Positions 2,620 to 21,353 of a stretch of 34,125 nt of DNA are shown here, in pieces; position 1 is the first letter of the stretch; each line of letters begins with the position of its first letter. Made by a program: the position numbers and the translations under genes. Source of the DNA: a virus; IMG/VR virus record IMGVR_UViG_3300045612_000059, positions 1 through 34,125 of that record. The stretch is one strand, 5' to 3'. A model generated the notes under the pieces. That model saw nothing but the letters and a program-made list of their open reading frames with translations, made no database searches and was not told the origin of the DNA.

Positions 2620-5600
2620 ATGCCCGCAGAACAATTTTTGAGATATGACGATGAGGGTAATTCCCAGTACGGGTATACCTCTGGGAACTCTATCTATGTG
2701 ACTAGCGTGCGCCCTCCGGGCGATGCCCCACCGAGTGCAAACGGTACATTTCAGGATGTGCAGACTCCCGCGCCTGCGGAGACATTAAATCTTCCTGCCG
2801 CCGCTCCGGCTCCTGTAGCGGTCCCTGCTCAAGCGCCAGTTGAACAAATGACTGGATTGCAGCTATTGGAAGAAACCAAAACGGTACCTGCAAATAAAGA
2901 ATCTTTGGCTACGTTGCAAAAGTCGCAAGCGGATGAGATCAAGTTATTAAAAGCGAAGGCAAAAGCGGCGGGGCTGTCTTCAAAAGAAATTACTGCGCTA
3001 GTCAACCAGATTGAAGCCGAGAACAAGGCAGAGCTTGCTGCGGCCAAGAGCAATGGCGTTATCAATACGGTAGATGGGAGAATTACTTCTCTTATTTCTG
3101 TGCCTCCGGCGGCTAATGATAAGCAAGCCTCTGTTGTTCAATCAGTTGTAAGCGCAACTCAACAGGGCATCAATTTTGCCAAAAAAGAGAACTACACCAT
3201 CAACTCCGGCAACTCTGTGCAGGGTGCTTACACGTTGTCTGTGGTTGCGGATGCTCTTGATTCAGGCAAAAGCGACGAAGAAGCTAAACAGCTTGCTGCT
3301 GATCTTTTGGCCAAGCGCCCAAGCGAAGTAGTCAAGATTGTCAAGGAGCTTGTTACTACTGCCCCAGGTGAAGGTGAAAAGCTAAAAGATGTTCCCGGCG
3401 GTTCTTTTTCTCTTGTACAGGCAAAATTAGACCCAGAAAAAAATCAACTACTTTACACAACAACCAAAGTTGGTGACGGACGCACTCTGACCACAATTTA
3501 TCTAAAAGATGAAAGTGGAAATTATAGAGAATTAGGCAACACCTATAAGTCTGTTAATACCAAAGAAGGTATTGGCGTAGTTGGTCAAATATTGCTTGGT
3601 GCTTTAGGTACGGCTGCTTTTGGTCCTTTGTCTACTGTTTTTGGCGGTGGCGTAGGTGGCGGTGTTGGCGCTGGCGCAATTATTGGTGGTGCATCAGCCG
3701 GTTTGACTGGCGGTGACATTTTGAAAGGCGCTGGTTTCGGCGCAATATCTGGAGCATTTAGCCCCCAAATTCCTGGCAGCGTCGGCAATTCTATGGTCAA
3801 GACTTTGCAGGCAGAGCTTACTTCTGTTTTGGGGCCGAAAATAGCAAACATCGCAGCGCGATCAATTACGTCTAGTGCGCTAGGTGCGGCGCAATCGGTT
3901 GTTGCTGGAACAGATGTTTTAACTGGCGCAGCGCTAAGCGCTCTTGGATCAGCGGTGCAAAGCACGGTATCTAATGAACTCATAAAACTAGGTTTGGACA
4001 AAGGCCCAAGTCTCAAACTAGGTGACGCCGCGTCTAATGCTGTGGCGGCTGGCGCGGTGGCTGCTCTTCAAGGCCAAGACGTTGGAGCGGCAGTAGGCTC
4101 TTCTTTAATTAGTTCTGGAATTAGCGAAATTGCAGAAACAGCTTATGCTGGCATGAAATCAGTTTTTGGCGGCAGCAATACCTCAGCGCCCGGCAGTGGT
4201 GGCGAAGACAGGGTGATATCGGCTGCATCTCAAGACGAGTCTGGTTTTATCAAGACGGGGGGCTTGCTAAGCATCGAATCTGACTTCGATGATACGCTTT
4301 TGCCTCCTGGTTTGTACAGTAATGTTACCGCTCAAGAGGCCATCGAGTTGTTGTCTCGTGGGGTGGTTCCTTTAGGAACCGCTACGCCAGAAATGGAGGC
4401 TACAACCACTCAGTCGGTTTTAGTAGACGAGTATACTTACAAATTCTTAAAGGTAATTGCTCGCCATGCAGAGTTAGACGGTGTGCGTTTGGCTTTTCGA
4501 ATTGATCCTAGACTTGAGATTGTTTACATCGATCAAAACCAACCGAACGCGCCACAAGTATTAAAAGCAGTTCAAAACCTGAACCGCGAGGTTGTACGAG
4601 AAATTGTTAATCCTACTGTTACGGCTAACAACATTGTCGATCTTTCAGGGGTGACCAATGTTTCGCCCCCACCCGTCCTGCCACCTGTCGATCTTTCAGG
4701 GGTGACCAATGTTTCGCCCCCACCCGTCCTTTCACCTAATGCAAGCGCAACTTCGATTTCTGGCGCTCTTAGCGGTGTCACTGGAAACGCTGGCGGTGGC
4801 GGTGGCGGAGGTGGGGGAGGAGGCGGTGGCGGAGGTGGGGGAGGAGGCGGTGGCGGAGGTTGGGGAGGAGGCGGTGGCGGAGGTGGGGGCGGTGGCGGAG
4901 GTGGAGGAGGAGGCGGAGGTGGTGTTGGTAGTTTGGGCGGCAATTTGTTTGTGGCTTCACCTTCTGTTTCAAGGACGCCTTCTGATGTTCTCAACCTGAC
5001 CGATATTATTTCTTTGTTACGTCAAGCCAATGTTGCTATTGGTTCGCCTGGTGATGGGAATATTGCTGTTTCTTCGGAAGGTGCTGGAGCCGGTAATGTG
5101 GTTATCGGTAGTGGTGGTGTTGCAAACGCAGTCTTATCTGCCGGTGGAACAGGCGTTACGGACGCAGGTACAGGCGGCGGCACAGGCACAGGTACTGGCA
5201 CAGGTACAGGCACTGGTACAGGCACTGGCGATGTTACTGATCAGCAGATTCTGAATGTTATAGCTGGCGGAAGCGCTGGCACAGGCACAGGTACTGGCAC
5301 AGGCGATGGCGCTGGCACAGGCACAGGTACTGGCACAGGCGATGGCGCTGGCACAGGCACAGGTACTGGCACAGGCGATGGCGCTGGCACAGGCACAGGT
5401 ACTGGCACAGGCGCTGGTACAGGTGAGGGTACTGGCGTAGGTACTGGTGGTGGTACAGGTGAGGGTACTGGCGTAGGTACTGGTGGTGGTACAGGTGAGG
5501 GTACTGGCGTAGGTACTGGTGGTGGTACAGGTGAGGGTACTGGCGTAGGTACTGGTGGTGGTACAGGTGAGGGTACTGGCGTAGGTACTGGTGGTGGTAC

Positions 5601-5838
5601 AGGTGCAGGCGGCGGCGGTGGTGAAGAACAAAAAAAAATAGATACTCAGTTGATTACATTCTTAGGTTTGGCTCCTCCTCCTACGCCAAAGAGACCACCA
5701 CCGCGTACTGCACAACCTAGTCTGATTGCGACTAGCGATGAAGCGGATTTGAGTGCATTATTCGGCGGTAAGCCGGAGGAATTACAGGACGTTTGGAACC
5801 AAGCATCTTTGCGCTTGAGAAGCGCGTTAGGAATTTGA
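2620..5838 (+). CDS. Large low-complexity virion protein (1072 aa) with Ala/Gly-zipper core, polyglycine and Gly-Thr repeats
   Basis: The N-terminus (residues 1-80) is Pro/Ala-rich and is followed by a helical Lys/Ala/Glu segment (about 85-150). Residues about 317-385 and 400-510 are small-residue hydrophobic (Gly, Ala, Ser, Ile) and resemble membrane-inserting glycine-zipper segments. A conventional globular part follows (about 560-660). Then come two 17-residue Pro-rich repeats (from 673), a nearly pure glycine tract of about 45 residues with one Trp (about 725-768), and Gly-Thr arrays to about residue 995. The last 75 residues are normal sequence. It heads a run of four long genes placed where podoviruses carry internal or ejection proteins. 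A DNA-ejection or membrane-channel role is inferred; a surface adhesin is the alternative. The ATG has an AGGATAAACGT leader. Confidence 0.8.
4636..4737 (+). repeat. Two tandem 51-base in-frame repeats
   Basis: Units at 4636-4686 and 4687-4737 encode [17 protein letters not shown] and then [17 protein letters not shown]. The two copies are almost base-identical, which points to a recent duplication inside the large virion gene. Confidence 0.9.
4790..4924 (+). repeat. Polyglycine-coding tract
   Basis: Roughly 130 bases of GGN codons are built from repeated ggtggcggagg/ggaggaggc blocks, encoding about 45 glycines broken by a single Trp. The G-rich tract is strand-asymmetric and could form G-quadruplexes on the coding strand. 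The opposite strand reads as polyproline but is not a gene. Confidence 0.9.
5275..5595 (+). repeat. Two 36-base minisatellites (Gly-Thr arrays)
   Basis: Four 36-base units from 5275 encode [12 protein letters not shown], the last one variant. Five near-identical 36-base units at 5416-5595 encode [13 protein letters not shown] related shorter Gly-Thr run precedes them at about 5165-5228. All are in frame, so gain or loss of units would change protein length without a frameshift. Confidence 0.9.
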
Positions 5839-14205: not shown

Positions 14206-14529
14206 CTAAGGGTGGGAGACCTCTTCCCGTATCAGTTTCATGAACTCGCGCAAGTCCATCACAACCAGTGGTTTTTTTCTGTCAGCCTTGACAATGAGGA
14301 TGGGCACCCTTTTCTTGGCTTCTGCTGAATCACATGCTTGGTGCCACCAGTCGTAAATTGCAATTGTCGCTCTGCGCTTGCATTCGATGCTGTAGGGCGG
14401 AAGGTCGATGTCGTCACCACCTGATCGCCATTGCTCTAGGTTGCGCTTGCAATCAACCCCAAGGAACTCCTTGAAGGCGTTGATGATGTCGCGCTCAAAC
14501 CCCGCGCCCTTGTTCCGTGAATTGACCAT
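14206..14529 (-). CDS. PDDEXK nuclease, Holliday-junction resolvase-like
   Basis: The product has 107 residues and opens MVNSRNKGAGFERDIINAF. Glu12 in GFERD, the Asp cluster at 39-42 (GGDDIDL) and Glu49-Cys-Lys51 (IECKRR) form the GxxxE...D...ExK core of archaeal-type and phage resolvases. It should cut branched DNA created by recombination and replication, clearing concatemers for packaging. The length is normal for minimal resolvases. It starts one base into the stop of the SSB-like gene (TGATG) and is part of the leftward recombination cassette. A VRR-NUC-type or restriction-like nuclease is the alternative. Confidence 0.82.
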   Translation of the reverse strand: MVNSRNKGAGFERDIINAFKEFLGVDCKRNLEQWRSGGDDIDLPPYSIECKRRATIAIYDWWHQACDSAEAKKRVPILIVKADRKKPLVVMDLREFMKLIREEVSHP

Positions 14530-14780
14530 CAGAACGGAATCGAGTCGTCGTCCTTAGGCGATACTTCTTTCGGATAGGTTTGTCCCGTGGCAGCGTATGT
14601 GTCAATTGCGAGGCTGATGAACTTTGAACCATTGGACGATTCTTTCAGCCACGCGCTGACTTTATGCTGCGTACCGTCAATTTTGAAATGTCCTTTGAAC
14701 CCTGGAGCTTTAGGGTGCTTGGCATAGTCGTTCGTAAACAAAACGCCCCTGCCCTCTTCCAACTCAATTCTCGTGGCCAC
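14529..14780 (-). CDS. SSB-like small protein with acidic C-terminal tail
   Basis: The core reads RGVLFTND...GFKGHFKIDGTQHKVSAWLKESSNGSKFISLAID, a small beta-barrel type found in many phages. The product ends in DDDSIPF, matching the acidic tip with terminal Phe that bacterial SSB proteins use to recruit partners. This suggests a single-strand DNA-binding or recombination accessory protein. I chose the GTG at 14780 because GGAG lies eight bases before it. The ATG at 14825 would add 15 residues (98 in all) and overlap the upstream gene by 62 bases. It is flanked by the HTH and resolvase genes. Confidence 0.75.
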   Translation of the reverse strand: MATRIELEEGRGVLFTNDYAKHPKAPGFKGHFKIDGTQHKVSAWLKESSNGSKFISLAIDTYAATGQTYPKEVSPKDDDSIPF

Positions 14781-14979
14781 GAATGTTTCTCCTTGCCAAG
14801 TGATAGCGAGCAAAATCTTTGCCATTCTCGCTGATGATTTCTGTGTAAATCTGATGCCCTTTTGCCCTGAGGTCTGAAATCCTTGCGGCCAATCTCATGC
14901 AGCCAAATTCTCTGAGTGCGTCTGCTGGCGTGATTGGATCATGCTGCAACCAATGCAAAATCGCGTCGGCCTGAGTCAT
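14764..14979 (-). CDS. Helix-turn-helix protein (71 aa)
   Basis: The start ATG at 14979 overlaps the annealing-protein stop by ATGA; the longer frame open to 15114 lies inside that gene. The product begins MTQADAILHWLQHDPITPADALREFGCMRLAARISDLRAKGHQI. This is the standard small winged-helix pattern of phage proteins in which the recognition helix lies at CMRLAARISDLR, followed by a YTEIISENGKDFARYHL wing. It is likely a DNA-binding accessory of the recombination operon or a transcription factor. A similar domain often sits beside recombination genes in phages. Confidence 0.8.
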   Translation of the reverse strand: MTQADAILHWLQHDPITPADALREFGCMRLAARISDLRAKGHQIYTEIISENGKDFARYHLARRNIRGHEN

Positions 14980-15830
14980 TCCGAGGCCGATTCCACGAAA
15001 TGATCCGGTGCCGTAATCGATTGGCCTGAAATTTTTGGGGACAGATTTTCCGGTTCTGTCTTGGCTGACGCGGCCATCAATTTCACCTTTGCAACCGGAT
15101 TCAGCCTGCCCCACGTCTCTGCGTTCAAGTGCTTGAACAAGTCGGTCTTGTTAATCTTCTCATCGTCCGACAACTTCTTGCTGTTCTTGATGTTGACGAT
15201 AATTTTCTCGTAATGATCGGACCAATCCTCAAGCGTAGGATGTCGGCTGTAAGGTTCTTCTTGACCAGGAATGAACAGGTTGAAGGGATGATCTAGGTCA
15301 TCGTCTTTGAATCCAACCAAAGGCGCTACAGGCGGTTTGATGTCCATTGGCTCTCTGACTGCTCCTAAGATACTCTCTGTCTCAGTTTCATCCAACATGC
15401 CGAGTCCACAATGAGCGAGAACAGTCCTGCGAATAGCCTTGGTAGTAGCTTTCATCATTGCATTAGCCAAGGAATCTCCCTTCAATCCACCGATACTTAC
15501 AGCCCCAGTGTTTTCGGTAGTCCGATTTGCTTGGTCCGTGACCCTAGCGCTAACGACGTATATATCCTCTACTTTTTCTCGGGCCGTTATCTGCACTGAG
15601 AGTCCGCGAGTGCCGCACAACTGCTGAGTCGCAGATGCGTTCGCGTACAAAATCTGCTTGCCGTTGAGCGTGAGCAGATCGAAAGGCTTGGCGGCTGCAT
15701 CAAGTCCTGCCTGTTGGCAGCGATAATTGTAATAGGCGACTCGCTGTTCGTTGGTCAGCCCCTTCAGGTCGCCGTTGATGACCAGACTGCTGATGACTGT
15801 AGGATCAAGCGTTGCAAGTGCGGCAGTCAT
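14976..15830 (-). CDS. Candidate single-strand DNA annealing protein/recombinase
   Basis: The product has 284 residues. Residues about 20-150 hold the conserved-looking part: LTNEQRVAYYNYRCQQAGLD, PFDLLTLNGKQILYANASATQQL, SVQITAREKVEDIYVVSARVTD, then GAVSIGG and NAMMKATTKAIRRTVL with a CGLGMLDETE end. This pattern recurs in phage proteins next to YqaJ exonucleases, where an annealing partner (RecT/Erf/Rad52-like role) is expected. I cannot assign one annealing superfamily by eye. The C-terminal third is charged and probably flexible. The ATG has GGGGTGAG upstream. With the exonuclease it would form a two-component recombination system. Confidence 0.68.
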   Translation of the reverse strand: MTAALATLDPTVISSLVINGDLKGLTNEQRVAYYNYRCQQAGLDAAAKPFDLLTLNGKQILYANASATQQLCGTRGLSVQITAREKVEDIYVVSARVTDQANRTTENTGAVSIGGLKGDSLANAMMKATTKAIRRTVLAHCGLGMLDETETESILGAVREPMDIKPPVAPLVGFKDDDLDHPFNLFIPGQEEPYSRHPTLEDWSDHYEKIIVNIKNSKKLSDDEKINKTDLFKHLNAETWGRLNPVAKVKLMAASAKTEPENLSPKISGQSITAPDHFVESASE

Positions 15831-16323: not shown

Positions 16324-17232
16324 TCAACCCTTCACCAGAAAACGACGAGAACCCGGCATATCCACGACAAAGCGCTCGTAGATGTCAGGCATCGCTGACT
16401 TGAACAGATCGGCTACGAACCGCTTGCTGGCCTTCGCTGTCTTCCATGTGGCCAATACCCTGCCCTCATAGGTGACCAGTTCTGCCGACTCTTTCATGAA
16501 CGCCTGAATGGCAGCGGCAAGTTCTTCTTCCTGCGACTCAAGTGCCTTAATCTGTGCCTTGATGGTGTTCAGTTGAGCGCAAGCTGTCTCAAGCTGACCT
16601 GTCGCCACAACCTTGTCGGCGTTGTCTTTGGGGAACAACTTGCGGAGATCGTCGGTGTTACCGGCCTCCGGCGGATTGCCTTCCTTGATGCGCCCCCAAA
16701 GTTCTGCCTCCACCCTGATCAGGTGTTCTTTTTCTGCGTCATCAAACGTCAACGGAAACGTGCAGAACTCATTGCCACCAAACAGCACCGCCAAGATGAC
16801 GGTGTTGACACCGAGGACAGTCGCTTCGTGGAGACACTGGTAGTAGTCAGCGTTGGGAACTTGATTGCTGCCGTTGTCCCCGAACTTGTTGCGCGTTATA
16901 GCGTTGTAATTCTTGGCCTCCACCAAGGTATTGCCGTCAGCGCTTATAAAGTCGAAGTGCGACCACATCCAGTCTTCGGTCTGATGACGCACCGCTGCGG
17001 GAAGGTCTTTTAGGGTGATGCCGAGACGATCCTCAGTCAGCCTCCCGATAACGGGCTGCATGACATGGCCCATTTGCACTGCCTCAACTTGAGACAGGTC
17101 AGGAGGTTCTGCTTCCCCTCTCTTCTCCAGGTAAACTTGTATTGCTCTGCCGTCTGCGATTTTGCGAGCATCGCTAGCCCAAATAGCCGTGCGCCGCTCT
17201 TCGGGGCTAAACCCGACTTGTACTTGTTGCAT
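16324..17232 (-). CDS. YqaJ-type viral exonuclease
   Basis: The start is the ATG at 17232 after GAGGGCAAA; the frame is open to 17286 but lacks a ribosome site there. In the 302-residue product, IWASDARKIADGRAIQVYLEKRGE is the typical SDA motif I. VQMGHVMQPVI is the V-x-x-G-x-x-x-E/Q-P-type helix, and SHFDFISADGNTLVEAKNYN carries the D94...E105-x-K107 catalytic core. It should degrade one strand from DNA ends and load the annealing protein encoded two genes downstream. A coiled segment follows (about 210-260), with a DMPGSRRFLVKG tail. The family usually works with RecT/Bet-like partners. Confidence 0.88.
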   Translation of the reverse strand: MQQVQVGFSPEERRTAIWASDARKIADGRAIQVYLEKRGEAEPPDLSQVEAVQMGHVMQPVIGRLTEDRLGITLKDLPAAVRHQTEDWMWSHFDFISADGNTLVEAKNYNAITRNKFGDNGSNQVPNADYYQCLHEATVLGVNTVILAVLFGGNEFCTFPLTFDDAEKEHLIRVEAELWGRIKEGNPPEAGNTDDLRKLFPKDNADKVVATGQLETACAQLNTIKAQIKALESQEEELAAAIQAFMKESAELVTYEGRVLATWKTAKASKRFVADLFKSAMPDIYERFVVDMPGSRRFLVKG

Positions 17233-17239
17233 TTTGCCC

Positions 17240-17326
17240 TCACTGGTTAGGTTGCTGCTTCTGCTGCTGTTGCTTGCGCTTCTCAATAGCCTGTTTCAAC
17301 GCATCCTCAAAGGTTCCTGACATCAT
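17240..17326 (-). CDS. Gln-rich microprotein (27-28 aa)
   Basis: ATGATG at 17326-17321 overlaps the stop of the upstream winged-helix gene. The short frame MSGTFEDALKQAIEKRKQQQQKQQPNQ ends at 17240, seven bases before the exonuclease ATG. It has a single charged helix with a Gln run. Its 3' end is the 16-base sequence also found upstream of the gene at 20872, so it may be a leader with translational coupling rather than a functional protein. Confidence 0.45.
   Translation of the reverse strand: MMSGTFEDALKQAIEKRKQQQQKQQPNQ
17243..17258 (-). repeat. 16-base leader sequence shared with 20884-20899
   Basis: CTGGTTAGGTTGCTGC occurs identically at 17243-17258 and 20884-20899. On the leftward strand it reads GCAGCAACCTAACCAG, in each case immediately before a GAGGG Shine-Dalgarno and a start codon (17232 and 20872). 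A shorter CCTAACC also precedes the start at 18023. Confidence 0.8.
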
Positions 17327-17781
17327 TCTCCCTTCAGCATCCACAACTGCGGAGAACTGTTGTTGGTGCGCGATCCCCACGCTTTTATGATGCCAGTGTC
17401 GTGCAGTTTTCGCACCGCATCTCGGATCGCGCTGGTTGACGCACCAATTTCAGCCGCCATGTCCGCCACAGACCACGGGCCGCCATTGACAGACATCAAT
17501 TTCACCACGTCGTCAAAGGCGAATCTGTTCGGACGGCGAGGGGCGGCCTTTTTTGCCTTTTGCCACTGCCGAGGCCACAGAAACGCAGTCCTTGCAACAG
17601 CGCCCATTTGCAGCAAGACGTTTTCAGCAATGCGCCGACCTCCAGGCGCGACGAATACACCATCATCTACGTAGTGCGGCAGAAAAGGACAGTCGCCAAC
17701 GAAATACATCGTCGCGTGGTCGCGCTCTGCTGGCTCATGCTCGTCTGCGTCATTGCGTTCGTCCAAAACATGATCAACCAT
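17323..17781 (-). CDS. Winged-helix DNA-binding protein
   Basis: The start ATG at 17781 overlaps the stop of the gene above it (TGATG). The product has 152 residues. The first 60 are acidic and His-rich (DERNDADEHEPAERDHATMYF). Residues about 80-150 hold a DNA-binding wing: FAFDDVVKLMSVNGGPWSVADMAAEIGASTSAIRDAVRKLHDTGIIKAWG, where the helix pair and recognition helix (STSAIRDAVRKLHDTG) are clear. It ends in a beta wing (SPQLWMLKGE). The role is likely transcriptional control or recombination accessory; it heads the exonuclease part of the leftward operon. Confidence 0.78.
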   Translation of the reverse strand: MVDHVLDERNDADEHEPAERDHATMYFVGDCPFLPHYVDDGVFVAPGGRRIAENVLLQMGAVARTAFLWPRQWQKAKKAAPRRPNRFAFDDVVKLMSVNGGPWSVADMAAEIGASTSAIRDAVRKLHDTGIIKAWGSRTNNSSPQLWMLKGE

Positions 17782-18023
17782 CACTCTCGCTCCTCCAACA
17801 ACTCCTCCAGATGCTGCATTGTGCTCATTGTCATCGCATGGACATCGGGCCACGGCTCGAAGAAGCGGCCCTCAGCCCCACACGGCCAGGTCCGCATCTG
17901 CATCGAACTGAAGCGGAACTCGCGCCCCGTCACCAGATCAACCTGCCTGGCCCGATCGTGCAGACAGTCCAGCGAGTCTGGGTCGTGATACGTGCAGTCT
18001 CGGCAAATTTTTGTCGGCATCAT
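17781..18023 (-). CDS. Cysteine-containing small phage protein
   Basis: Four consecutive ATGs (18029-18018) follow GGAG at 18030-18033. The third (18023) has six-base spacing, and 18020 is the other good choice. The product has 80 residues and begins MMPTKICRDCTYHDPDSLDCLHD. Its CxxC...C...C...FFEP pattern with VTGREFRFSS in the middle matches a widespread small phage family with Cys residues, probably a zinc knuckle, of unknown role. It is the first gene of the leftward operon, directly below the divergent control region. Confidence 0.76.
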   Translation of the reverse strand: MMPTKICRDCTYHDPDSLDCLHDRARQVDLVTGREFRFSSMQMRTWPCGAEGRFFEPWPDVHAMTMSTMQHLEELLEERE

Positions 18024-18058
18024 CATCATCTCCTTTTAGGTTAGGCACTGCAATCTGC

Positions 18059-18087
18059 ACACTACGACCAGGTGAGTAGGTTGTCAA
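18059..18087 (-). promoter_or_regulatory. Candidate leftward promoter
   Basis: On the leftward strand, TTGACA (18087-18082) is followed by 17 bases and TAGTGT (18064-18059). The -35 is perfect and the -10 is weak (three of six). It lies about 40 bases upstream of the first gene of the leftward recombination operon, the right place for its promoter. Confidence 0.45.
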
Positions 18088-18104
18088 CATTTTTGTGGGC
18101 GCGG

Positions 18105-18174
18105 GGCGAAACTTTTCATTTCGCCGTCACAATTGGCCGCTAAGGTGCTGATTGCACAGTTTTTGTGCGGCCAA
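18105..18174 (+). promoter_or_regulatory. Inverted repeats in divergent control region and leader
   Basis: GGCGAAA (18105-18111) pairs with TTTCGCC (18119-18125). TTGGCCGC (18133-18140) pairs perfectly with GCGGCCAA (18167-18174), and GCACA (18154-18158) with TGTGC (18164-18168) as an alternative inner hairpin. The outer stem ends exactly before the GGAG of the gene at 18187, so folding could mask or present its ribosome site, or the elements may be operators. Confidence 0.55.
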
Positions 18175-18186
18175 CGGAGACTAAAA

Positions 18187-18381
18187 ATGGGACTGTGGAA
18201 TGTGACAAATGTGATCAAATTTGAATATTTTGTGGAAAGTGACAATGCATCTGAGGCGATCAAAGAGGCGATGGACCAGGACATCGACGAGACCAGCGAG
18301 TCGTGGTTTGCCACTCAAGTGGACGATCAAGACGAGACCGAGGATGACGGCGCGGACGAGGACACTGGGTCGGCACACTGA
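18187..18381 (+). CDS. Small acidic-tail hypothetical protein (64 aa)
   Basis: The start ATG is at 18187, eight bases after GGAG; the open frame upstream has no ribosome site. Residues 1-20 (MGLWNVTNVIKFEYFVESDN) look like a beta strand pair. A helix (ASEAIKEAMDQDI) follows, and then a very acidic end (DDQDETEDDGADEDTGS). It resembles small phage early proteins that bind host factors or mimic nucleic acid charge, but I know of no family. It is the first rightward gene after the divergent region and is followed at once by a terminator. Confidence 0.62.
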   Translation: MGLWNVTNVIKFEYFVESDNASEAIKEAMDQDIDETSESWFATQVDDQDETEDDGADEDTGSAH

Positions 18382-18383
18382 TT

Positions 18384-18417
18384 GACAGCGCCCCCACATG
18401 GGGGCGTGTCTCTTTTT
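18384..18417 (+). terminator. Intrinsic terminator
   Basis: CGCCCCC (18389-18395), loop ACAT, GGGGGCG (18400-18406), with an outer GACA/TGTC extension, then TGTCTCTTTTT. This is a classic rho-independent structure directly after the stop of the 64-residue gene and 12 bases before the metallophosphoesterase start. Confidence 0.8.
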
Positions 18418-18428
18418 GAGGGGCAATC

Positions 18429-19403
18429 ATGGCAAACATTCGCGCAATCGCCCTGGACGTTGCGGAGCGGATCAGGGACGCATGGCCGTCTGCAACCAGC
18501 GTGATGGATGCGATGCATCGGGCCGGTCTCGACATCTCAGACATCCGCACTGCCTATCGCTACCGGCGTTTAGCCGAAGAAAAGTTAAATATCCAACTCC
18601 CCACCCTGCAGCCGCAATTTGTTGGGGACTGGCGCATCCGCGAGGGGCGAGACAGGCCGCACACGGTCTTCTTTGACCACCCCTACACGATGGTCATTTT
18701 CAGTGACGCGCATTTCTGGCCTGGACACACGAGTCCCGCGTTCTGGATTCTGTTGCAGATCATCGAGGAGCTGGAGCCTGACATCGTTATCGACAATGGA
18801 GACTCATGGGACGGGGCCAGCATCAGCCGCCACCCATCGAATCTGTGGGAGACCAAGCCGACGTTGCGCCAGGAGCTGGACTGTGTGCGCGACCATTTGC
18901 AATTGATCGAGGATGTAGCTAGGGATGCGTATCTTTTGCGACACATCGGCAACCATGACATTCGTCTGGAGGCATTGCTGTCGCAGCGCGTTCCTGAGAT
19001 CCAAGATATGCCCGGCACTAAGGTGTCTGACCTGTTCGAGACTTGGGATCATAAAGTCTCCACCATCTTCAACGAACACTTGATTGTCAAACACCGCTAC
19101 CGCAGCGGGATGCACTCGGCCTATAACAACGTGTTGCACTCGGGCCTGTCCATCATCACTGGACACACTCACAAGCTAGGAGTGCGGGCGCACACCGATC
19201 TACGCGGGACACGATACGGCATTGAGACCGGGACGCTGGCTGACCCTTGGGGGCCACAGTTCAGGTATGTCGAGCAGAACACTCGCGACTGGCGCATGGG
19301 TTTTGCTGTCATCACGGTCAACGGTCCGCACATCTACCCTGAGTTGGTCGAGGTGCATGAAGACGGTCACGCATGGTTCAGAGGGAAGGTCTACAAGGCC
19401 TAA
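18429..19403 (+). CDS. Metallophosphoesterase (calcineurin-like)
   Basis: The product has 324 residues. The N-terminal 60 are helical and look like a DNA-binding or accessory segment (AERIRDAWPSATSVMDAMHRAGLDISDIRTAYRYRRL). The catalytic domain carries all signature motifs: Asp93-Ala-His95 (FSDAHF), Gly-Asp 124-125 (DNGDSWDG), GNHD 174-177 and GHTH 245-248. It should bind two metals and cleave phosphoesters; in phages such enzymes act as nucleases or nucleotide phosphatases. Its start follows GAGGGGCAATC. The gene stands alone between a terminator just upstream and a long hairpin downstream, and is convergent with the regulator genes. The substrate cannot be stated. Confidence 0.88.
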   Translation: MANIRAIALDVAERIRDAWPSATSVMDAMHRAGLDISDIRTAYRYRRLAEEKLNIQLPTLQPQFVGDWRIREGRDRPHTVFFDHPYTMVIFSDAHFWPGHTSPAFWILLQIIEELEPDIVIDNGDSWDGASISRHPSNLWETKPTLRQELDCVRDHLQLIEDVARDAYLLRHIGNHDIRLEALLSQRVPEIQDMPGTKVSDLFETWDHKVSTIFNEHLIVKHRYRSGMHSAYNNVLHSGLSIITGHTHKLGVRAHTDLRGTRYGIETGTLADPWGPQFRYVEQNTRDWRMGFAVITVNGPHIYPELVEVHEDGHAWFRGKVYKA

Positions 19404-19416
19404 AGTGGGCTGTGGA

Positions 19417-19480
19417 TAACGCTGGGCATCAGCCGACCACGGAACCGGAGGCGTAGTGGGTCGGCTGGATGCCCTTGTTA
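19417..19480. terminator. Long hairpin between convergent genes, bidirectional terminator candidate
   Basis: GGGCATCAGCCGACC (19424-19438) pairs with GGTCGGCTGGATGCCC (19459-19474), with one extra G in the right arm, and TAAC/GTTA flanks can extend the stem. It fills the gap between the convergent phosphoesterase and regulator genes. No strong T-run follows on either strand. A TGTGGATAA DnaA-type box at 19411-19419 touches its left edge. Confidence 0.55.
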
Positions 19481-19699
19481 TGGCAGCGCCGCGCGCAACC
19501 TTGGAGCCAGCGCGTCGAGCGTCGCGGCGCGCTCCTGCGTTAAGCGGAGCAAGTCGGTGTAGACCCCCGAGGGCATGTCCGCACCCGCTGCCCAGCGGCG
19601 CACAGTGCGGTCAGATACACCTAGATCGCGCGCAAGCGCCGATTGCCAGTGAGGCCCATATAGGGCCTCACCAGAATCAGACAGGACCCTGCGGCTCAC
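19478..19699 (-). CDS. HTH transcriptional regulator-like protein (73 aa)
   Basis: The product includes GEALYGPHWQSALARDLGVSDRTVRRWAAGADMPSGVYTDLLRLTQERAATLDAL. LARDLGVSDRTVRRWAAG is a clear helix-turn-helix of the XRE/Cro type with little else attached. Small proteins with the YGPRWQSALARDLGVSDRTVRRW pattern are common in phages and prophages. It follows the 85-residue gene with an ATGA overlap and shares its promoter. An operator overlapping that promoter suggests it represses its own operon. Confidence 0.85.
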   Translation of the reverse strand: MSRRVLSDSGEALYGPHWQSALARDLGVSDRTVRRWAAGADMPSGVYTDLLRLTQERAATLDALAPRLRAALP

Positions 19700-19953
19700 G
19701 CCACGACCGGCGCGGCGACGGTGGCGACGTAGCCGCCGTAGCCGTTGATCCAGCGCTCAACTTGACCGCTCATGTCCACGCTGTAGCTGTAGCGACCGGT
19801 GCTGTAGCCGTCGAGCTTGAGTCGCTTGGCCTCGCCTTGGGTCAGCCAAGCGACAAAGCCGGTAACGGTGTTGCAAGTGCGCGGGCTGACCGTGGTCTTG
19901 CGTCCCGTCGAGAGGATTACGGCGGCGCCTGTGCTGATGGTGTTGTTGCTCAT
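19696..19953 (-). CDS. Small hypothetical protein upstream of regulator
   Basis: The start is the ATG at 19953 with GGAGG seven bases upstream; the frame is open to 20004 but those residues lie in the promoter region. The product has 85 residues, beginning MSNNTISTGAAVILSTGRKT and followed by TGFVAWLTQGEAKRLKLDGYSTGRYSYSVD, a mixed beta/alpha pattern. A Gly/Tyr-rich end (WINGYGGYVATVAAPVVA) is seen. No family is recognised. It is the first gene of a two-gene leftward unit with the HTH regulator. Confidence 0.66.
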   Translation of the reverse strand: MSNNTISTGAAVILSTGRKTTVSPRTCNTVTGFVAWLTQGEAKRLKLDGYSTGRYSYSVDMSGQVERWINGYGGYVATVAAPVVA

Positions 19954-20002
19954 GATGTGGCCTCCAATATTGCCAACTTGGACGGGCCGGATTGCCCTGT
20001 CC

Positions 20003-20039
20003 ATGTCCTAATACTAGGACATCATCTGCGCCCTGTCAA
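20003..20039 (-). promoter_or_regulatory. Leftward promoter with overlapping operator
   Basis: On the leftward strand, TTGACA (20039-20034), a 17-base spacer and TAGTAT (20016-20011) make a near-consensus promoter. A perfect inverted repeat, ATGTCCTA (20003-20010), ATAC, TAGGACAT (20015-20022), covers the -10 element. It lies about 50 bases above the start at 19953 and is a likely binding site for the HTH protein encoded in the same unit. Confidence 0.75.
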
Positions 20040-20061
20040 GCGCCATAACGCTAGTCTAACT

Positions 20062-20157
20062 TGTAGATAACCTGTGTACAACCCTGTGGATAACCTGTGG
20101 ACAAAAATCCCCCCTTACGTAGACATACAGTATCTTATCCCTTCTATAGAAGGGATA
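20062..20157 (+). other. Candidate replication origin: phased DnaA-like boxes and palindrome
   Basis: Four nonamers lie at nearly helical spacing: TGTAGATAA (20062), TGTGTACAA (20073), TGTGGATAA (20085, perfect DnaA box in reverse sense) and TGTGGACAA (20096). After a C-run, a 22-base perfect palindrome spans 20136-20157 (arms TATCCCTTCTA/TAGAAGGGATA). An AT-rich stretch follows to 20215. The layout resembles an initiator-binding cluster beside an unwinding region. A fifth perfect box is at 19411-19419. This is inference from motif layout. Confidence 0.5.
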
Positions 20158-20219
20158 TGTGTACACGTAATAAATCCCCCCTATATGTATAAGATAACTT
20201 ATAGTATGAGTCTAAACGC

Positions 20220-20417
20220 TCACAGACATCCGTAGGCGTACCAGACGACCAGTCCGATGGCGATCGCCCAGACAGTCAGCCCTGCCCACCAGAGGGCGTC
20301 ATGGTCGTTGTCCTGCTGCACCCATAGGACCGGCTCGTGTCCGTATGCCTCACGCATCGAGCGGGGCAGACGGTAGTCGTGTGGGCGATACTCGGAAAAG
20401 TAATGATGCTCACGCAT
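20220..20417 (-). CDS. Small single-pass membrane protein (65 aa)
   Basis: The start ATG at 20417 has GAGAGG eight bases upstream; a TTG at 20423 is too close to it. The first 40 residues are polar and rich in His, Tyr and Arg (REHHYFSEYRPHDYRLPRSMREAYGHEP). Residues about 45-63 form a membrane helix (ALWWAGLTVWAIAIGLVVWYAYGCL), placing the N-terminus in the cytoplasm or outside as a tail-anchored protein. It sits beside the candidate origin and is transcribed leftwards. The function is unknown. Confidence 0.6.
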   Translation of the reverse strand: MREHHYFSEYRPHDYRLPRSMREAYGHEPVLWVQQDNDHDALWWAGLTVWAIAIGLVVWYAYGCL

Positions 20418-20484
20418 AGCCAATGCCTCTCTGACGCGCTGTGAGGGCCGCTGTTGAGTTCTGGGGCGTTAGGTAATGGGTAGG

Positions 20485-20511
20485 CTAGGGCGCGGTGTTT
20501 TGCGCCCCTAG
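20485..20511 (-). terminator. Hairpin after the 117-residue gene
   Basis: CTAGGGCGC (20485-20493) pairs with GCGCCCCTAG (20502-20511), with one extra C and an eight-base loop. It lies just below the stop at 20519 on the leftward strand. There is no U-run, so its termination strength is doubtful. Confidence 0.4.
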
Positions 20512-20518
20512 AATCGAG

Positions 20519-20872
20519 TCACGCCGCGTCGGCGTATTGGTTAATCAAGTACTCGGCGATTTCACGCCAGTTGACGTCAATGAGGAACGCCAGCTCGTAA
20601 TAGCGCGCGATGCCCTCGGTGGTGTCAACAATGTAGTCCTCGATATGGTCGAGCACCTCGTTCGACAACTCGTACGCGGCCATGTGATAGCGCGTGATGC
20701 CCTCGTGGGTGGTGTCAAGAATGTATTCCTTTTGATGGTCGCGCAGCGCGTTCGACAACTCGTACGCGGTCATCGGCCATTCCATGTCGTGCGGATTGAT
20801 GCCGTCTATACACTCCACAAAAATGCGCCATGTGGCGTAGTTTGTCCATCCGTTGTAGGTGGTGTCGTTCAT
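20519..20872 (-). CDS. Repeat-containing hypothetical protein (117 aa)
   Basis: The product begins MNDTTYNGWTNYATWRIFVECIDG, a GW-x-NYATW opening seen in small phage proteins of unknown role. Two copies of a 30-residue unit follow: AYELSNALRDHQKEYILDTTHEGITRYHM and AYELSNEVLDHIEDYIVDTTEGIARYYE. At DNA level, a 21-base identical block recurs at 20659-20679 and 20749-20769 (period 90). A third partial copy follows (ELAFLI...WREIAEYLI). The ATG has GAGGG seven bases upstream. It is acidic and helical with no membrane segment. Confidence 0.72.
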   Translation of the reverse strand: MNDTTYNGWTNYATWRIFVECIDGINPHDMEWPMTAYELSNALRDHQKEYILDTTHEGITRYHMAAYELSNEVLDHIEDYIVDTTEGIARYYELAFLIDVNWREIAEYLINQYADAA

Positions 20873-21353
20873 GATGTTTCCCTCTGGTTAGGTTGCTGCG
20901 TACACAGTTAGATGTCATGTGCGGTAGATGCACAGTCACATCATGCACCATACACTACTCTCGTGCTTGAATTATTTGTTACATACGCGCGCGCGATACT
21001 CTACATAAGACATATGTCTATAGACATACATTCATAAAACCACTTATGTCTAATGACTAACGTCTATAGATACATATGGATTGTGTGTAAGACATACTAC
21101 CGTCCGCCCCTGACGTCGAATTTGGGGCTGGGGCCGGGACTGGTCGGCGAGGCTGTCGTGTCGTCGTCGTGCAGCTTGTCGCGCTGTGTCAATTGGGTTT
21201 GGGACGGTCGAAAGCGTGGCACGGATCGGTTCTGGCAGGTCGGCCCAGTCAAATTGGGTTTGAGATTTTTGCGCGCGCGCCCCCCGACCTTCATCCCCCC
21301 AAGGAAAAATACGTTTTCTGGTATTCTTGTTTCACTTGAGTAGGGGATTAGTG
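20873..21353. other. 481-base region without a convincing gene; motif-rich control region
   Basis: The left part (20941-21100) is AT-rich and holds AGACATA or its complement at 21008, 21013, 21022, 21045 and 21090, including the palindromes AGACATATGTCT (21008-21019) and GTCTATAGAC (21016-21025). Another copy is at 20121 and one at 21362. The right part (21100-21290) is GC-rich, with AATTGGGTTTG repeated at 21191 and 21252. A leftward 65-residue frame there lacks support. The region separates leftward from rightward genes, so it should hold promoters or operators. Confidence 0.6.
20884..20899 (-). repeat. Second copy of 16-base leader sequence
   Basis: Identical to 17243-17258. It lies immediately before the GAGGG ribosome site of the gene starting at 20872. 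Confidence 0.8.

Follow-up and report, generated by a model that had tools for sequence, protein, structure and literature searches.

How do small tailed phages start replication if they encode no polymerase, helicase, or initiator? This is largely obscure. The question arises for a freshwater-type phage, IMG/VR record IMGVR_UViG_3300045612_000059, whose full 34,125 nucleotides we analyzed ("the window"). The record begins and ends with a 228-base repeat (227/228 identical), which makes a complete genome probable. (This terminal repeat, with its one mismatch, sits inside such a gene as those at 2620-5838 and 1-691, which encode structural proteins that are rich in glycine and contain long repeats of low complexity.) An initial annotation proposed that a cluster of DnaA-like boxes, beside a palindrome and an AT-rich stretch, is an origin that depends on the host's DnaA, and that recombination genes complete the concatemers. 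We put the probability at roughly 60% that the unit at 20062-20219 serves as an origin of replication by recruiting host DnaA, with recombination taking over afterwards. The features that we will discuss are listed in Table 1.

Table 1. The DnaA-box array, its surroundings, and the recombination genes, with coordinates in the window.
Feature	Coordinates	Strand	Details
RusA-like Holliday junction resolvase / PDDEXK nuclease	14206-14529	-	Family searches (Pfam, PHROG)
SSB-like protein	14529-14825	-	PHROG 7364, 7.2e-9
Rad52-fold single-strand annealing protein	14976-15830	-	Predicted structure, pLDDT 74; best PDB matches all RAD52
RecE/YqaJ-like recombination exonuclease	16324-17286	-	Pfam YqaJ, 1.2e-6; PHROG 434, 8.4e-50
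Isolated perfect DnaA box	19411-19419	+	Directly past the metallophosphoesterase stop codon; corresponds to the first box of the G001 array
Segment missing from G001	19425-20061	-	HTH gene (19478-19699), 102-aa gene (19696-20004), and their promoter
Sigma70-like promoter	20011-20039	-	TTGACA-17-TAGTAT, leftward; 10/12 match
DnaA-like box 1	20062-20070	+	TGTAGATAA, 1 mismatch; G001 has the consensus TGTGGATAA
DnaA-like box 2	20073-20081	+	TGTGTACAA, 2 mismatches; G001 has TGTGGACAA
DnaA box 3	20085-20093	+	TGTGGATAA, perfect consensus, 0 mismatches
DnaA box 4	20096-20104	+	TGTGGACAA, 1 mismatch
AT-rich, easily melted stretch (candidate duplex unwinding element, DUE)	20105-20219		Nearest-neighbor stability
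Direct repeat, left copy, flanking the palindrome	20105-20114	+	AAATCCCCCC; present in G001
Perfect 22-bp palindrome	20136-20157		TATCCCTTCTATAGAAGGGATA; center ~42 bp from the array end
Direct repeat, right copy	20172-20181	+	AAATCCCCCC; present in G001
Second inverted repeat	20188-20203		TATAAG-ATAA-CTTATA; G001 has TATAAGATTACTTATA

The four nonamers that had been reported are present on the + strand, at spacings of 11, 12, and 11 bp. Counting mismatches against TGTGGATAA, box 3 alone matches the DnaA consensus perfectly. Taken singly, boxes with no more than two mismatches are not enriched in the window (89 sites, with 87 expected). The phased chain of four boxes far exceeds chance: across 300 dinucleotide shuffles, the longest chain was one box in 299 shuffles and two boxes in the remaining one. 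A search for repeats in 19500-20700 turned up the DnaA-box repeat only and no direct repeats of 17-22 bp (iterons), and this region of the window has no match to the IHF consensus. We also looked for DnaA-trios within about 16 bp of a box. On every flank and on both strands, the trio runs did not exceed those of shuffled sequences in length.

The AT-rich character of the DNA to the right of the array is borne out by nearest-neighbor energies. In the 33.9-kb genome, it ranks second for low stability, whether 40, 60, or 100 bp are considered at a time; the gap at 20996-21096 is its chief competitor. The palindrome within it is exact, as had been claimed, and its single-strand fold has a z score of -3.4. 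In G001, a relative whose exonuclease is 89% identical to the window's, two base pairs of the palindrome are altered on both sides, which preserves the pairing (compensatory changes). We rejected the idea that the palindrome is an intrinsic terminator, as no terminator-like site was found in 19400-21100.

As far as our tests reach, the phage has no recognizable polymerase, helicase, or primase. DnaB helicase, PolA (family A polymerase), and the DnaC/IstB loader were not detected in the window phage or in 12 related near-complete genomes. For 48 unannotated proteins from four array-bearing genomes, we compared the best 25 of 30 PHROG families and the best 25 of 26 Pfam families. Among these listed matches, there were no replisome families, no plasmid-type Rep initiator, and no O/P-type initiator or helicase loader as in lambda. 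It is possible that the phage encodes an initiator of an undescribed kind, since the wHTH-like protein at 17323-17853, found in the window and G001 but in none of the other 11 genomes, gave just a low-confidence structural model. We left that model out as evidence. A small cysteine-rich, zinc-finger-like protein at 17781-18029 has no match in PHROG, but relatives of it are found near the exonuclease gene in 11 of 13 family genomes.

The recombination cassette is genuine: the exonuclease, the annealase, the SSB-like protein, and the resolvase are leftward early genes that lie together. Searches of Pfam and PHROG gave no family match for the annealase, and the top structural match for its model is Rad52 (E = 1.6e-4, probability 1.00). 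In most of the relatives that we tested, a RecT-family protein occupies this position.

To examine conservation, we gathered relatives by searching viral contigs with the window's exonuclease, and we added loci from pattern searches, for 96 loci overall. Arrays are present in 29 of these, 360-2818 bases upstream of the exonuclease gene and, as in the window, on the strand opposite to it. Most of the arrays consist of 3-4 perfect TGTGGATAA boxes at 11/12 bp spacing. In an earlier scan, 22 of 83 loci had chains (the one in MW202753 is weak), as compared to 0 of 83 reversed sequences.

The setting of these arrays is conserved as well. In 19 of the 19 array loci compared, stability is lower on the right side of TGTGGATAA than on its left, although these loci are related and are not independent trials. 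The median stability rank in these loci is within the top 0.15% of the locus for the right flank and 4% for the left flank. A right-side palindrome with arms of at least 9 occurs at 14 of 18 family loci, as compared to 4 of the 85 arrays from outside the family. The family's palindromes are 20-27 bp long, with centers mostly 46 to 54 bp past the array end and usually at about 50 (as against ~42 in the window). Their sequence varies among subgroups while the pairing is retained.

Because related phages keep the array beside easily opened DNA, it is probably an origin that runs on host equipment. Specifically, host DnaA would occupy the four phased boxes in a row, all on the same helical face, and the assembly would melt the AT-rich stretch to its right or hold it open. 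The host's DnaB helicase, primase, and polymerase III could then be loaded there. The palindrome, some 42-50 bp on, would probably form a hairpin once melted, or else it might be a dyad for a small phage protein; either way, it could help to position the loading. Early rounds of theta replication would come first, and the exonuclease, Rad52-type annealase, SSB, and resolvase would then build concatemers for packaging. An origin is likely because it accounts for the phasing, the unstable flank, the distance to the palindrome, the conserved right side, and the lack of recognizable replisome genes.

Conservation supports the initial proposal only in part, since most relatives lack the boxes. Of the 42 family loci whose upstream sequence extends to 3 kb or more, 11 carry an array. 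On a tree of the exonucleases, the array label switches at least seven times, but this count is rough because L124 and L190 were scored as array-less and yet have variant arrays. No replisome genes were detected in the array-less relatives either, so these phages must initiate replication differently. We rejected the possibility that replication genes replace the array in them: the two extra genes of G007 match an uncharacterized family and amidoligase families. And since most of the replisome-less relatives (including L247) lack the boxes, DnaA boxes are not the sole route to starting replication in this family. We found no cultured close relatives, just two uncultured genomes from Manatee Spring, both without a consensus array. 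When we sought the host via genome contigs, we arrived at only five metagenome bins of mixed lineages, with no phased arrays.

The left side of the array is less constant, as can be seen from G001. G001 is collinear with the window across 17841-19424 and 20062-20462, and the 637 bases in between are missing. Its array, whose boxes are nearer to the consensus than the window's, lies immediately past the end of a rightward gene, at the metallophosphoesterase stop codon. The window retains a stray box at that place (19411), which the 637-base segment separates from the array. This segment may be mobile or may be deletable through the repeated boxes that flank it. Of its two genes, the HTH gene is YdaS/Cro-like, and a search for relatives of the other (102 amino acids) gave none.

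The same segment bears on whether the array is instead a DnaA-responsive regulatory site, through which the leftward early promoter (20039-20011) would be controlled. The promoter is a good match to sigma70 (10/12) and begins about 23 bp to the left of the array; also, its -10 element lies within a perfect inverted repeat, ATGTCCTAATACTAGGACAT (20003-20022), which resembles an operator. Such regulation has precedent, since DnaA serves as a transcription factor for some promoters in bacteria (PMC6015884). However, one promoter match in the region is what shuffled sequences give (mean 1.0), and the promoter belongs to the segment that G001 does not have; there, the array comes right after the 3' end of a gene that reads rightward. 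The array can thus occur without this promoter. The conserved neighbor is the side with the AT-rich stretch and the palindrome, and we think that a regulatory role is quite unlikely.

Another pair of relatives shows that the array and the AT-rich element can be separated. L247 is 84% identical to L227, and it lacks the array cassette alone; the AT-rich element is retained. This implies that the array is a detachable module, and the two sisters, with and without it, are a natural experiment. As the array is detachable and the AT-rich element can exist by itself, DnaA may assist initiation without being indispensable. L247 could also be explained if the AT-rich palindromic element were the origin or control site for a DNA-binding protein of the phage, with the DnaA boxes as accessories. 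The palindromes change in sequence and keep their pairing, as co-evolving sites do, and there are small DNA-binding candidates (the wHTH-like protein and the HTH protein encoded at 19478-19699). But no initiator family was found among the listed matches to PHROG and Pfam, and the wHTH-like protein is confined to two of the 13 genomes. We consider this explanation to be very improbable.

Phased arrays are not confined to the exonuclease family. At least 120 viral contigs (L082-L201) contain three phased TGTGNAYAA boxes, versus 15 that match a scrambled control of equal composition, and the arrays fall in several unrelated gene neighborhoods. (In one group, the array adjoins the terminase gene.) Among 19 long array-bearing contigs, one of which is from the window's family (L124), 9 encode a DnaB-type helicase and 6 encode a family A polymerase. 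Arrays are therefore not tied to the lack of a replisome. Boxes of this kind are also found in two cultured phages, the T7-like Berlinvirus P483 (8 boxes) and the T5-like Epseptimavirus polluks (records KP090453 and MT074456). In both, as in the window, they have 11-12 bp spacing and lie in noncoding DNA. T5-like and T7-like phages are known to encode their own replisomes, in contrast to the window, where none was detected.

Given phased arrays in phages that encode a replisome, DnaA titration or regulation is possible. As phage copies accumulate, an array could act as a sink for host DnaA and block new rounds of host replication, without being an origin. This would explain why many unrelated phages have arrays even when they carry their own helicase and polymerase, as well as why unstable DNA favors neither side of the arrays outside the family and how L247 could lose its array cleanly. 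A sink does not need unstable DNA or a palindrome, though, and the family's array always adjoins very unstable DNA and usually has a palindrome at a set distance. Also, there are just 3-4 boxes per genome. The titration/hydrolysis site datA is likewise a cluster of DnaA boxes, but the window differs from it in lacking an IHF site and in adjoining a candidate DUE. We view a sink as unlikely for this family. Among the groups that we compared, the origin-like setting is distinctive of the window's family, and DnaA boxes may serve phages in more ways than one.

How does the proposed origin compare to known ones? Like E. coli oriC and the basal unwinding system of B. subtilis, it has clustered DnaA boxes that adjoin an easily melted AT-rich element. 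Origins of the oriC type have boxes of mixed affinity, whereas the family's arrays have 3-4 mostly strong boxes plus a palindrome whose structure is conserved. In oriC, the boxes nearest to the DUE are oriented so that they read TTATCCACA in its direction (R1). In the window, the AT-rich stretch is on the other side, so the boxes point away from it. Polarity matters in B. subtilis, where reversing the trio-proximal boxes inactivates the unwinding region (PMC6669920); that system has DnaA-trios, and the window has none. The iteron plasmid origins (RK2 oriV, P1 oriR, pSC101, and R1) also have a small group of DnaA boxes beside a DUE. In RK2, DnaB is delivered to four boxes, and in R1, DnaA raises the efficiency of replication but is not required (PMC4980987). 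These plasmids rely on a Rep protein and iterons, neither of which was found in the window. Lambda-type origins are AT-rich phage origins as well, and use the host's helicase and polymerase (general knowledge; PMC5043065), but no O- or P-like initiator was found in the window.

The global minimum of the detrended cumulative GC skew, which had been suggested as a check, is at 3507 and not at the array. There is a local minimum at 20358 (within 14-26 kb), near the array, but it coincides with a switch in gene direction, so GC skew is confounded as evidence for an origin. Besides the GC skew, several of the observations above count against an origin: the low frequency of the array (11/42), its loss from L247, the reversed polarity, the lack of trios or an IHF site, and the arrays in phages with replisomes. 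What stands of the original proposal is the conserved origin-like setting in a phage with a real recombination cassette and no recognizable replisome; the skew minimum and the box-less relatives without replisomes speak against it.

More broadly, we suggest, at somewhat less than even odds, that there are double-stranded DNA phages whose initiation apparatus has been reduced to a swappable cassette in cis. The cassette would comprise DnaA boxes, an unwinding element of reversed polarity, and a palindrome that is maintained by structure; it would let a phage without a replisome start copying with the host's DnaA, and it would be gained and lost as a module. The parts are known and the arrangement is uncommon. 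We found no report of DnaA-box arrays as the origins of replisome-less phages in the open literature (subscription journals were outside our search). If the unit is an origin, then it is a concrete and portable sequence to test, and it explains how such phages couple replication to the physiology of the host. The architecture of the boxes might also be a clue to the host range of uncultured phages. The recurrence of arrays in unrelated phages raises the question of whether phages commonly exploit or sequester DnaA, which is possible.

Two other sequence elements were seen in these relatives. L074, whose terminase is 90% identical to the window's over the part that is available, has four boxes with at most one mismatch each within 45 bp, about 4.0 kb upstream of terL. 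These boxes are in mixed orientation, while the other arrays are on one strand. Also, a dyad, TGCYTA-N-TARGCA, lies beyond the AT-rich stretch and upstream of the exonuclease gene in L227, L247, L214, L218, and L269; it occurs both with and without the DnaA array.
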